Source of the DNA: Macromonas nakdongensis
GTDB taxonomy: Bacteria > Pseudomonadota > Gammaproteobacteria > Burkholderiales > Burkholderiaceae_C
Direction: 5' to 3'
Length of the DNA: 64,000 nucleotides
Assembly (NCBI RefSeq): GCF_002837145.1
Contig: NZ_NWMV01000009.1
Location: 1 to 64,000 of the forward strand
Shown: positions 1-3,446 of the stretch, one piece after another
Numbering within the stretch: the stretch's first letter is position 1
Layout of the letters: each line of letters starts with the position of its first letter
Made by a program: the position numbers and the translations under genes
The notes under the pieces: generated by a model
Databases searched by the model: none
What the model saw: only the letters and a program-made list of their open reading frames with translations
Told to the model about the DNA's origin: nothing

Positions 1-584
1 GCCCCGCCGTGCCCGAACCGCTGCCAGCCGACGCCGCGCCGCCGCTGAACGACGCCGACAAACGCCTGTCCGGCGCGCTCATGCGCGTGAACCACGTGGG
101 CGAAATCTGCGCCCAGGCGCTCTACACCTCGCAGGCGCTCGCGGCCCGGCTCGGCCCGGGTCCGGTCGCCGCGCGCGAACGGCTGGCGCGCCACCTCGAA
201 GCCGCCGGCCAGGAGGAAACCGACCACCTGGCCTGGTGCAAGCAGCGGCTCGACGAACTCGGCGACCGCCCCTCGTTGCTGAACCCGCTGTGGTACGCCG
301 GCGCCTTCGGCATCGGCCTGCTGGCCGGGCGCCTGGGTGGCCCGGTCAGCCTGGGCTTCGTGGTGGAAACCGAACGCCAGGTAGAGGCCCACCTCGACAG
401 CCACATGGACCGCCTGCCGGCCCACGACCACGCCTCGCGCGCCATCGTGGCGCAAATGAAGGACGACGAAGTGCGCCACGCGCGCGAGGCCCAGCACGCC
501 GGCGCGGCCGAATTGCCGACACCGGTCAAACGCGCCATGCGCCTGGCCGGCCGGGTCATGACGACCCTGGCCCACCGCCTCTGA
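1..584 (+). CDS. coq7: Coq7 family ubiquinone hydroxylase, 5' end outside window
   Basis: Di-iron monooxygenase that hydroxylates 2-polyprenyl-3-methyl-6-methoxybenzoquinol late in ubiquinone synthesis, at the inner membrane. Counting from the GTG at 9, the ferritin-like iron ligands are visible: E32 in HVGE, E70 with H73 in EETDH, E122 in VVETE and E154 with H157 in DDEVRH. The frame is open to the window edge and about 190 residues are present against roughly 205-215 usual for the family, so the first 20-30 residues probably lie upstream; the GTG at 9 is an internal codon in that reading. Converges on the OsmC-like gene with 33 bp between. The family call is firm, the start is not. Confidence 0.93.
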
Positions 585-617: not shown

Positions 618-1067
618 TCAGGCCTCGATCAGGTCGAAGCTGGTCGTGATCTCGGCCGTCTTGCCCAGCATGATGCTGGCCGAGCAGTATTTGTCGTGGC
701 TCATGGCGATGGCGCGCTCCACCGCACCGGCCGAAATGCCCTTGCCGGTGACGGTGAAGTGCATGTGGATCTTGGTGAACACCTTGGGCTCGGTCTCTGC
801 GCGCTCGCTGCTCAGCTTGACGCTGCAGCCGCGCACGTCGTGGCGGCCACGCTTGAGGATGAGCACCACGTCGTAGGCGGTGCAGCCGCCGGTGCCGGCC
901 AGCAGGGTTTCCATGGGACGCGGGGCCAGGTTGGCGCCACCGTTCTCGGGTTTGGCCGCGTCGGGCGCGCCGTCCATGGCCAGCACGTGGCCGCTGCCGG
1001 TTTCGGCCACAAAGCCCATGTTCGAACGGGTGCCGGCGGCGCCGGTCCAGGTGACGGTGCATTCCAC
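618..1067 (-). CDS. OsmC family protein
   Basis: A 149-residue OsmC/Ohr-fold protein of the YhfA-like branch, cytosolic, with a probable thiol peroxidase role. The two conserved cysteines of the family are present, C62 in GTGGCTAY and C128 in HDKYCS. The frame stays open upstream to 1175, but the GTG at 1067 is preceded at proper spacing by a TTGGAGA ribosome site and gives the normal family length, so I chose it. It reads away from a small-RNA candidate whose promoter begins about 40 bp upstream. Substrate is unknown; no organic hydroperoxide (MarR-type OhrR) regulator is adjacent. Confidence 0.85.
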   Translation of the reverse strand: MECTVTWTGAAGTRSNMGFVAETGSGHVLAMDGAPDAAKPENGGANLAPRPMETLLAGTGGCTAYDVVLILKRGRHDVRGCSVKLSSERAETEPKVFTKIHMHFTVTGKGISAGAVERAIAMSHDKYCSASIMLGKTAEITTSFDLIEA

Positions 1068-1104
1068 AGAAATGTCTCCAAAAAAACAACAGAGTGCGTC
1101 GAGG

Positions 1105-1136
1105 TTGTTGCAACGCAACAATATCGGGTTTATACT
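1105..1136 (+). promoter_or_regulatory. Sigma-70 promoter of the sRNA candidate, with an inverted repeat over the -35 box
   Basis: TTGCAA (1108-1113), a 17-nt spacer and TATACT (1131-1136) make a near-consensus promoter pointing right, with the start expected near 1143. The inverted repeat TTGTTGC-aac-GCAACAA (1105-1121) covers the -35 element, the layout expected of a repressor site. No open reading frame with a ribosome site starts behind it. The function of the repeat is inference. Confidence 0.6.
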
Positions 1137-1142
1137 GAGACC

Positions 1143-1262
1143 ATTGTATGCAATCCAGCCAACGCTGGCTTGCATCGCCCGGGGCCAGCCCCGTTGTCAG
1201 TTGTCTCCTCTGCCCTCTATGGGTGGTTCAAAGCCCGGTCAATCGCGACCGGGCTTTTTTTT
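1143..1262 (+). ncRNA. Candidate trans-acting small RNA, about 120 nt
   Basis: A free-standing transcription unit between a good promoter and an intrinsic terminator, with no coding potential. Predicted fold: a 5' hairpin ATGCAA/TTGCAT plus CCAGC/GCTGG with a CAAC loop (1148-1175), a second stem CGGGG/CCCCG with a CCAG loop (1180-1193), an unpaired C/U-rich stretch (about 1201-1219) containing CTCCTC that could pair with ribosome-binding sites, then a terminator stem ending in eight T. This is the architecture of an Hfq-type regulatory RNA. I do not recognise the family; a betaproteobacterial Rfam sRNA is possible. The 5' end is inferred from the promoter. Confidence 0.55.
1231..1262 (+). terminator. 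Rho-independent terminator of the sRNA candidate
   Basis: Stem AGCCCGGTC / GACCGGGCT around an AATCGC loop, followed by a run of eight T. Rightward polarity only; no upstream protein gene on this strand could use it, which supports a separate RNA gene. Confidence 0.85.
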
Positions 1263-1481: not shown

Positions 1482-2714
1482 TCAAACTGGCAAAAATACG
1501 GCGAAACGGGCGCCCCCGCCGGGGTGTGCTTCGCAGCGCACGTGGCCGCCGTGGCGTTCGGCGATGGTCCGCACCAGGGCCAGCCCCAGACCCACGCCGC
1601 CTTCGCGCTCGCTCGCGCCGGGCAGGCGGTAGAAAGGCTGGAAAATGCGTTCGCGCTGCTCGGCCGGCACGCCAGGGCCACGGTCGCTGACGCTCAACGT
1701 CCAGCCCGATGCGGCACCGGGGCCGCCCACCGGGGGCTGCAAGGCGCAGGTGACGCTGGCCGGGTCACCCGCGCGCAGGCCGTGGCGCCGGGCGTTTTCC
1801 AGCAGGTTGCGCAGCAGGCGCCGCAGCAGTCGCGCGTGTCCGCGGATCACCGCCGGAGGCAAGCCATCGGCCACGTCCAGGGTGGCGCCGGTGCGGGCAC
1901 ACTCCTCGGCGGCCAGGCCCAGCAGGTCCACCTCCTCCAACGGCCCCAGGGCGGCGGCGTCGTTCGGATCGGCCAGGTCGAGCCGGCTGGCCAGCAGGAT
2001 TTCGTCGATCAGCTCGTCCAGCTCGGCGATGTTGCGCTCGATCTCGCGACGCTGGGCGGGGCTGACGCCGTCCTCCAGCAAGGCCAGGCCCATGCGGATG
2101 CGCGCCAGCGGCGAGCGCAGTTCGTGCGAGGCATTGGCCAGCAAGGTTTTGTGCGCTTGCAGTAGCGACTGCACCCGCTCGGCGGCGGCGTTGAAGCGCT
2201 CGGCCAGGAAGGCCACCTCGTCGCGCCCCTGCACCGGCACCCGTGCCCCCAAATCGCCTTCGCCCCAGCGCTGCACGCCGCGCTGCAGGGTTTCCAGGCG
2301 CTGGGTCAGCCGGCGCACCACCGGGTAGGCGCCCAGCGCCACGGCCAGGGCCACACCCACCAGCAGCACCACAAAACCGCCGAGCGACTGGAACAGGCCG
2401 AACGGCTCGGCCCGTCCCCCCGGCGGATGGGGCGGGCGCGGCAACTGGATGGTGAGGGTTTCGCCACTGTCCAGCGGCACCTCGAATTCCGGTCCCCGGT
2501 CGCCGCGGCTCAGGCGCACCGGCGCCCGGCCCAGCACCTGGCCGTCGGCGTTGCGCACCACCACCTCGCGGCCGGGCCGCTGGGCCCGCTCGTGTTCCCA
2601 CTGGGCGCGCCACATCCAGCCCAGCAGCAGCGTCATCACGGTGATGGCGGCCACCACCGCCAGCCACAGGCGCAGCGACAGGTGCTGGTGCAGGCGCGGA
2701 CGCGGCAGGTGCAC
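1482..2714 (-). CDS. Two-component sensor histidine kinase
   Basis: Inner-membrane sensor kinase of 410 residues. Transmembrane helices at about 15-35 and 108-132 flank a short periplasmic loop of about 70 residues; HAMP follows (about 133-185), then the HisKA helix with phospho-acceptor H197 in ASHELRSP, the N box in LLRNLLENARRHG, and the ATP-binding G1 (DRGPGVP) and G2 (GVGLGLALV) boxes. The response regulator lies 3 bp upstream and is transcribed first, so the two are a partner pair. The small periplasmic loop resembles CpxA/RstB-class sensors, but the signal is unknown. Confidence 0.9.
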   Translation of the reverse strand: MHLPRPRLHQHLSLRLWLAVVAAITVMTLLLGWMWRAQWEHERAQRPGREVVVRNADGQVLGRAPVRLSRGDRGPEFEVPLDSGETLTIQLPRPPHPPGGRAEPFGLFQSLGGFVVLLVGVALAVALGAYPVVRRLTQRLETLQRGVQRWGEGDLGARVPVQGRDEVAFLAERFNAAAERVQSLLQAHKTLLANASHELRSPLARIRMGLALLEDGVSPAQRREIERNIAELDELIDEILLASRLDLADPNDAAALGPLEEVDLLGLAAEECARTGATLDVADGLPPAVIRGHARLLRRLLRNLLENARRHGLRAGDPASVTCALQPPVGGPGAASGWTLSVSDRGPGVPAEQRERIFQPFYRLPGASEREGGVGLGLALVRTIAERHGGHVRCEAHPGGGARFAVFLPV

Positions 2715-2717
2715 GGC

Positions 2718-3446
2718 TCAGTCCTGCTGCTTGGCGAACACATAGCCCACGCCGCGCACCGTCAGGATGCGGCGCGGGGCCTTGGGGTCGTCTTCGATGG
2801 CGTGGCGGATGCGGCCCATGTGCACGTCGATGGAGCGGTCAAAGGCTTCCAGTTCGCGCCCGCGCACCGCTTCCATGATCTGGTCGCGGCTGAGCACCCG
2901 GCCGGCACGCTCGGCCAGCACCACCAGCAGGTCGAACTGGTGGGCGGTGATGTCGCAGGGTCGGCCATGGACGGTGACGCTGCGGGCGTCGCGATCGATG
3001 TCGAGCGAGCCGAAGCGCAAGGGCGGCTGGCCCGGTACCGCCGAGGCGCCCAGCGGCCCGTCCCGGCGCCGCAGCACGGCGCGGATGCGTGCCAGCAGTT
3101 CGCGCGGCTCGAAGGGTTTGGGCAGGTAATCGTCGGCGCCCATTTCCAGGCCGATGATGCGGTCCATCGGGTCGCCCTTGGCGGTGAGCATGAGCACCGG
3201 CACGCGCGCGGCCTCGCCCGGCAGGGCGCGCAGGCGACGGCACACGTCCAGGCCATCGGTGTCGGGCAGCATCAGGTCGAGGATGACGAGGTCGGGCAGG
3301 CGCTGCTGCACCGCGGCCAGTCCGGCCGCGCCGTCGCCGGCGTGCGCCACGCTGTAGCCAGAACGTTGCAGGTACTCGGCCACCATGCCCGCCAGGCGGG
3401 CATCGTCTTCGATCATCAGGAGGTGCTGGGCGGGGGTCACCGTCAT
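2718..3446 (-). CDS. OmpR-family DNA-binding response regulator
   Basis: A 242-residue regulator with an N-terminal receiver (acid pocket D14-D15, phospho-acceptor D57 in VILDLMLPDTDG, conserved Lys in LTAKG) and a C-terminal winged helix from about residue 140 (VRGVGYVF at the end, the usual OmpR wing). It starts with ATG and directly precedes its kinase. Residue pattern puts it near the RstA/CpxR type, but target genes cannot be inferred from the neighbours: the next gene upstream, an AmpG-like permease, ends 73 bp away and may or may not share the transcript. Confidence 0.92.
   Translation of the reverse strand: MTVTPAQHLLMIEDDARLAGMVAEYLQRSGYSVAHAGDGAAGLAAVQQRLPDLVILDLMLPDTDGLDVCRRLRALPGEAARVPVLMLTAKGDPMDRIIGLEMGADDYLPKPFEPRELLARIRAVLRRRDGPLGASAVPGQPPLRFGSLDIDRDARSVTVHGRPCDITAHQFDLLVVLAERAGRVLSRDQIMEAVRGRELEAFDRSIDVHMGRIRHAIEDDPKAPRRILTVRGVGYVFAKQQD

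Follow-up and report, generated by a model that had tools for sequence, protein, structure and literature searches.

We propose that positions 1143-1262 of the 64,000-nt stretch of Macromonas nakdongensis DNA analysed here (the window) encode an sRNA of the S17/NcS27 family that, in this Comamonadaceae-like host, is repressed by PhaR, released by PHB and silences uptake and catabolic genes, a reading to which we give a probability of roughly 0.77. Synteny and an RF02278 match slightly under the curated cut-off make the RNA a divergent homologue, in conserved gene order (coq7-osmC-sRNA), of S17 in Bordetella and NcS27 in Burkholderia. The sRNA family itself is already known; the new part is the operator, whose regulator, on comparative evidence, is probably the PHB-responsive repressor PhaR. 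The features of the locus are as follows.

9..584, plus strand: coq7 (Pfam COQ7, 3e-40; conserved synteny)
618..1066, minus strand: osmC-like gene, divergent from the sRNA (Pfam OsmC, 8e-16; a neighbour in homologues too)
1073..1079, minus strand: osmC Shine-Dalgarno sequence GGAGACA, seed-complementary, a possible but weak local target (sequence)
1105..1121, no strand: PhaR-type operator TTGTTGC-AAC-GCAACAA, overlying the -35 box (17/17 fit to YTKNTGCRNYGCANMAR)
1108..1113, plus strand: -35 box TTGCAA, within the operator (sequence)
1131..1136, plus strand: -10 box TATACT (sequence and aligned homologues)
1143..1262, plus strand: predicted primary transcript, long form, S17L-like, about 120 nt (promoter and terminator; fold z -4.5; S17L of the homologue mapped by 5'-RACE)
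about 1146..1193, plus strand: 5' leader with two hairpins (fold; three of the four nearest relatives have a similar predicted 5' hairpin)
1202..1262, plus strand: predicted processed short form, S17S-like, the RF02278 core (RF02278 match; RNase E processing of Bordetella pertussis S17)
1202..1209, plus strand: seed UGUCUCCU, complement of the Shine-Dalgarno sequence AGGAGACA (seed start nearly invariant among homologues)
1210..1226, plus strand: short stem-loop, its loop without the second CUCCUCC motif, Site 2 (fold; C-G to U-A exchanges across the aligned stems)
1230..1262, plus strand: intrinsic terminator, stem 1230-1257 and T-run to 1262 (fold; multiple covarying pairs, 112 unique sequences)

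The sigma-70-type promoter described in the initial annotation was confirmed by reading the sequence from 1085 to 1265, with TTGCAA and TATACT separated by a 17-bp spacer and a predicted transcription start at about 1143. From there to 1262 the RNA folds at -52.5 kcal/mol, compared with -36.1 +/- 3.7 for dinucleotide shuffles (z -4.5), and none of 200 shuffles was as good. The fold runs from the 5' hairpins through an open stretch with unpaired UGUCUCCUCU to the stem at 1210-1226 and the terminator, so that both the C/U-rich single-stranded segment and the strong terminator (stem plus T-run) are borne out. The two hairpins originally described became four stem-loops, the upstream two forming the leader and kept solely in close relatives. 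A stable sRNA unit is thus upheld. A 55-codon frame is present at 1148-1315, but it reads across the terminator and nothing supports it as a gene.

Both an Rfam search with 1143-1262 and a comparison of the coq7/osmC locus among relatives had been suggested. In the covariance-model search, RF02278 (Betaproteobacteria toxic sRNA; model length 64 nt) matched 1202-1262 over its full length with 44.5 bits and an E-value of 1.4e-7. The score lies below the curated gathering cut-off of 50 bits, and automatic annotation would therefore miss the sRNA. This is the one RF02278 hit in the M. nakdongensis genome, and across its GTDB family RF02278 was found in 127 of 151 genomes. RF02278 is no housekeeping RNA, an identity that had been named as a way in which the sRNA proposal could fail. 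Membership of MmgR (RF00519) was rejected at 22.7 bits (E 0.03, cut-off 41), as was membership of anti-hemB, with a weak covariance-model score under its cut-off.

Our homologue set comprises 131 loci from 117 genomes, and in 113 of these loci coq7 and/or osmC lies just upstream, the S17-type genomic neighbourhood also present in the window. The other family features are found there as well: the seed UGUCUCC opening the short form, the short stem and the terminator. An alignment of 112 unique sequences showed an essentially constant seed start, C-G/U-A exchanges in the first stem and many compensatory changes in the terminator. Conservation across the family is confined to the core at 1202-1262; the leader hairpins are shared with close relatives only, and the family's 5' leader differs widely in length and sequence. 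Site 2, the second C/U-rich loop, is absent, the loop reading UCUAU and being similarly short in the closest relatives; it serves as a target site in S17 and has no part in defining the Rfam family. Given the E-value, the synteny and the seed and terminator architecture, the RNA initially called unnamed belongs to RF02278/S17/NcS27.

On its other side, the sRNA adjoins an OmpR-type response regulator and a HAMP histidine kinase (minus strand, 1482-3446). This leftward histidine kinase operon ends in a second terminator hairpin, GCCACCCC-ttgg-GGGTGGC with a T-run (minus strand, 1279-1357), and its 170-nt 3'UTR holds weak RF00519 and anti-hemB matches. The histidine kinase was detected at only one other locus (L141) in the family locus set, and is therefore not a stable neighbour of the sRNA.

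The 17-bp inverted repeat at 1105-1121, reported earlier as lying over the -35 box (1108-1113), is real; its regulator had been left unnamed, and it is here that comparison points to PhaR. The operator TTGTTGCAACGCAACAA agrees at 17 of 17 positions with YTKNTGCRNYGCANMAR, the palindrome derived for PhaR of Ralstonia eutropha (PMC12849132). This repressor of phasin genes is titrated by PHB granules. M. nakdongensis has a PhaR gene of its own, whose product shows both Pfam domains. Its 3.06-Mb genome contains the exact repeat a single time, and a genome-wide scan with the consensus returned only four perfect matches, namely the sRNA promoter, two phasin promoters (contigs C102 and C109) and, within a coding frame, one site on C57. 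Each of the two phasin promoters is flanked by its site and a second near one, a layout shared with R. eutropha phaP1. The phasin promoters of the same genome thus give independent support for reading the 17-bp motif as the local PhaR site.

With a PhaR-type site defined as TGCRNYGCA plus arms, 106 of 117 genomes have one upstream of the sRNA, against 28 of 1818 random windows of those loci (1.5%). Of the 113 coq7/osmC-linked loci, 104 have the site over the -35 box and 9 lack it, and the initial reading of the repeat as an operator is supported. Alignment of the loci on the site brings out a TANACT-like -10 box at a fixed distance, with near-random spacer bases in between; since the -10 box keeps its distance while the spacer varies freely, the site must overlie the -35 box across the family. 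All 17 positions match the R. eutropha consensus in 24 of the 113 loci, the other sites retaining the core and inner arms, and at 29 of 30 phasin loci the same consensus precedes the gene.

The site extends well beyond these relatives. Eighty named genomes share a common 27-nt core, 78 of them with enough upstream sequence; 68 of the 78 have a site by the rule, although about six of these, judged by eye, lie too distant from the promoter or past it and are best left out of the count. Most sampled named Burkholderiales and Rhodocyclales genomes carry it, and it was seen in Bordetella, Achromobacter, Pandoraea, Herbaspirillum, Azonexus and Dechloromonas. In two Bordetella genomes, both of which encode PhaR, the -35 box lies within ATCTTGCA(T/A)CGCACAAA and in one of them is exactly TTGCAT (the sample did not include the B. 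pertussis sequence). In Cupriavidus and Ralstonia the site is mostly eroded, although PhaR is present. At six Cupriavidus/Ralstonia loci (L218, L227, L278, L262, L270 and L286) the right half has been lost, and a conserved palindromic element, CGAAATGCGATTTCG(C/T)AGTGCAAATTT, is found upstream of the -35 box.

Does the site disappear with the repressor? M. nakdongensis' own GTDB family is uninformative on this point, with PhaR in 146 of 151 genomes, and because nearly all family genomes have PhaR the order was used. Among its RNA-carrying genomes, 38 of 54 with PhaR have the site compared with 1 of 27 without (Fisher P 3e-9, shared ancestry ignored), and the PhaR-less genomes span some ten families by GTDB label. 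The lone exception (G271) is a genome of 85% completeness, and PhaR is present in its congener (G230). In one PhaR-less genome (G293) the left half, which is the -35 box, survives as TTCTTGCAAAG and the right half is gone; in another in which no PhaR was found (G138) the right half is mutated to GCGGCA. Some of the site-less loci in PhaR-bearing genomes are paralogues.

These data bear on two other readings of the operator. The first keeps the S17 orthologue and gives its operator to another regulator of the TTGC(N)GCAA type, for instance a MarR- or LacI-type repressor. Our assignment was drawn from consensus and co-occurrence, and certain PhaR-bearing lineages have no site, which would suit such a regulator; yet the same motif is found at the phasin promoters of M. 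nakdongensis and at 29 of the 30 phasin loci of relatives, and the near-absence of the site from PhaR-less genomes (1 of 27) also argues against it, so that we regard this reading as unlikely. The second, more improbable still, treats the repeat as an extended -35 element or a chance palindrome, with the sRNA constitutive or controlled in another way (BvgA-like, or by growth phase). It can draw on the overlap of the left half with the -35 box and on the dependence of B. pertussis S17 on BvgAS, but the right half falls within the spacer of the promoter, where it plays no promoter role, and TGC...GCA with its arms has been kept in 104 of 113 loci beside spacer bases that are random.

The C/U-rich segment had also been put forward as an anti-RBS element of a plausible trans-acting repressor, and the published homologues S17 and NcS27 do act in this way, which by analogy favours the same role here. 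AGGAG is the core of the Shine-Dalgarno sequence, and AGGAGACA, the seed complement, is itself a good one. We searched the genome for exact AGGAGACA octamers, taking perfect matches only, with AGGAGAAA as control. Of 35 AGGAGACA occurrences, 30 were inspected and 26 lay 0-8 nt ahead of an open frame's start codon, although two such frames (L349 and L350) look spurious; the single control octamer was at start sites in 7 of 21 cases (Fisher P 2e-4). Because AGGAGACA is a good Shine-Dalgarno sequence in its own right, this start-site enrichment is partly trivial. Most of the genes that follow AGGAGACA encode solute-binding proteins or catabolic or redox enzymes. Six code for periplasmic solute-binding proteins, two for acyl-CoA dehydrogenases and one for a branched-chain amino-acid permease; the others include genes for an enoyl-CoA hydratase, monooxygenases, the transhydrogenase PntA and a protein that reads as pyruvate dehydrogenase E1, for which Pfam shows a transketolase domain only. 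Those following the control look like housekeeping genes (trigger factor, ribosomal protein L16 and AccD, named by reading their sequences only). Small as the numbers are, the AGGAGACA start-site set supports, without proving, the predicted repression of targets, and these predicted targets resemble the uptake and catabolic genes controlled by NcS27 and S17 in their own hosts.

Action chiefly in cis, on the divergent osmC gene, can be set against repression in trans, and we rate it a little below even the chance palindrome. The osmC Shine-Dalgarno sequence is seed-complementary and is one of three GGAGACA sites within the 64-kb window; however, no seed complementarity at osmC was seen in relatives inspected by eye, and the characterised homologues work in trans on many mRNAs, so cis action was rejected. 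Scarcely credible, and likewise rejected, is the initial proposal of a new sRNA family unrelated to RF02278: the score does fall under the Rfam gathering cut-off, but the E-value of 1.4e-7, the common synteny, the seed and terminator architecture and the intermediate sequences in close relatives strongly contradict it.

For the PhaR-repressed S17/NcS27 homologue that we favour, we infer that PhaR binds and is released by PHB, that the transcript is processed at 1202 and that Hfq and target repression play a part. When no PHB is stored, PhaR would occupy the operator and RNA polymerase would be blocked; as PHB granules form they would bind PhaR, and the sRNA would be transcribed alongside the phasin genes. 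RNase E probably cuts the transcript right before UGUCUCC, and the short RNA, probably with Hfq, would mask AGGAGACA-type Shine-Dalgarno sequences, such that translation of solute-binding proteins and catabolic enzymes would drop. The matching PhaR site suggests, then, that the sRNA lowers nutrient uptake and breakdown as carbon stores fill, and it may be seen as a carbon-satiety signal, the betaproteobacterial counterpart of the PhaR-controlled MmgR in Sinorhizobium. Repression of uptake during storage agrees with the induction of Burkholderia members of the family in glucose medium, and MmgR provides a precedent.

Elements resembling the sRNA also occur next to phasin genes. Four secondary RF02278 hits are located in phasin 3'UTRs, and in M. 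nakdongensis itself a like element follows the phasin gene on contig C109 (L041, minus strand; L176). TGTCTCC occurs within 260 nt past the stop codon in 21 of 30 phasin loci, with a hairpin and terminator in those inspected; of 702 windows covering both strands of those loci, true sites included, 27 contain it. These UGUCUCCUCGG-hairpin-terminator elements share the S17 seed (loci L133, L138, L140, L145 and L148-L177). From its position and structure, the phasin element is likely a 3'UTR-derived sRNA under PhaR control.

In 8 of 10 other paralogues the core is closely preceded by a sigma-54-type promoter, with the sequence CTGGCACGGAAGCTGC or a variant of it, compared with 0 of 113 coq7-linked loci; the form TGGCACG-N5-TGC is seen at the non-coq7 paralogues L107, L114, L120, L124, L125, L129, L131 and L136. 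It seems from these promoters that the RNA family is fed by both PHB state and sigma-54, that is, by the balance of carbon and nitrogen. We consider it slightly better than an even bet that Betaproteobacteria possess a general carbon-storage satiety circuit, in which anti-Shine-Dalgarno sRNAs with a UGUCUCC seed, made from PhaR-repressed S17 promoters, PhaR-controlled phasin 3'UTRs and sigma-54 promoters, would jointly shut down uptake and catabolism in response to the PHB and nitrogen state.

S17 and NcS27 are among the most widespread sRNAs of Betaproteobacteria. S17 of B. pertussis adjoins coq7 and has a sigma-A promoter with a -35 box TTGCAT and a 17-bp spacer; it is cut by RNase E to a 67-nt form with its 5' end in a C/U-rich stretch, depends on Hfq and represses mRNAs at ribosome sites, BP2158 for example, its long form S17L having been mapped by 5'-RACE (PMC11722255). 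The window sRNA is alike in its coq7 neighbour, sigma-70-type promoter with 17-bp spacer, C/U-rich start of the predicted short form, terminator and anti-RBS seed. It differs in its divergent loop without Site 2, and S17 has been published as Bvg-dependent: BvgAS is its known input, and the authors postulate a repressor that they do not name (PMC11722255). PhaR is not mentioned in that paper, and the operator described here names a candidate for the postulated repressor.

NcS27 of Burkholderia cenocepacia damps growth, uptake and catabolism, and Burkholderia family members are induced 4-8x in glucose medium (PMC5688073, PMC10987360). With NcS27 and the double-hairpin RNAs NcS03/05/62 the window sRNA shares the core seed UGUCUCC and a two-hairpin short form and, by inference, processing and repression of uptake and catabolism; B. 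cenocepacia, unlike M. nakdongensis with its single hit, has several RF02278 copies per genome. A shared upstream motif has been noted for the B. cenocepacia RF02278 RNAs without an assigned identity (PMC5688073, PMC10987360). Our literature search, whose coverage did not extend to the NcS27 study of Sass (2019), found no earlier link of PhaR to RF02278, NcS27 or S17. PhaR control would give the sRNA a physiological signal, PHB storage. If true, it would also be relevant to bioplastic production, where engineering of phaR and phasins ignores the sRNA and the phasin 3'UTR element.

The phaP1 promoter of R. eutropha has the same 17-bp PhaR palindrome beside a sigma-70 promoter (PMC12849132), but phaP1 is a protein gene with two sites flanking its promoter, whereas the gene described here encodes an sRNA and has one site on the -35 box. 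In Sinorhizobium, PhaR/AniA represses the sRNA MmgR, which is linked to PHB state (PMC12542648). As in MmgR of S. meliloti (RF00519), a PhaR/AniA site lies in the promoter, known here from a sequence match; MmgR, in contrast, belongs to another RNA family by covariance-model score, is alphaproteobacterial and acts on PHB and phasins. If our reading is true, PhaR control of an sRNA would be common to alpha- and betaproteobacteria, and exerted through unrelated RNAs.
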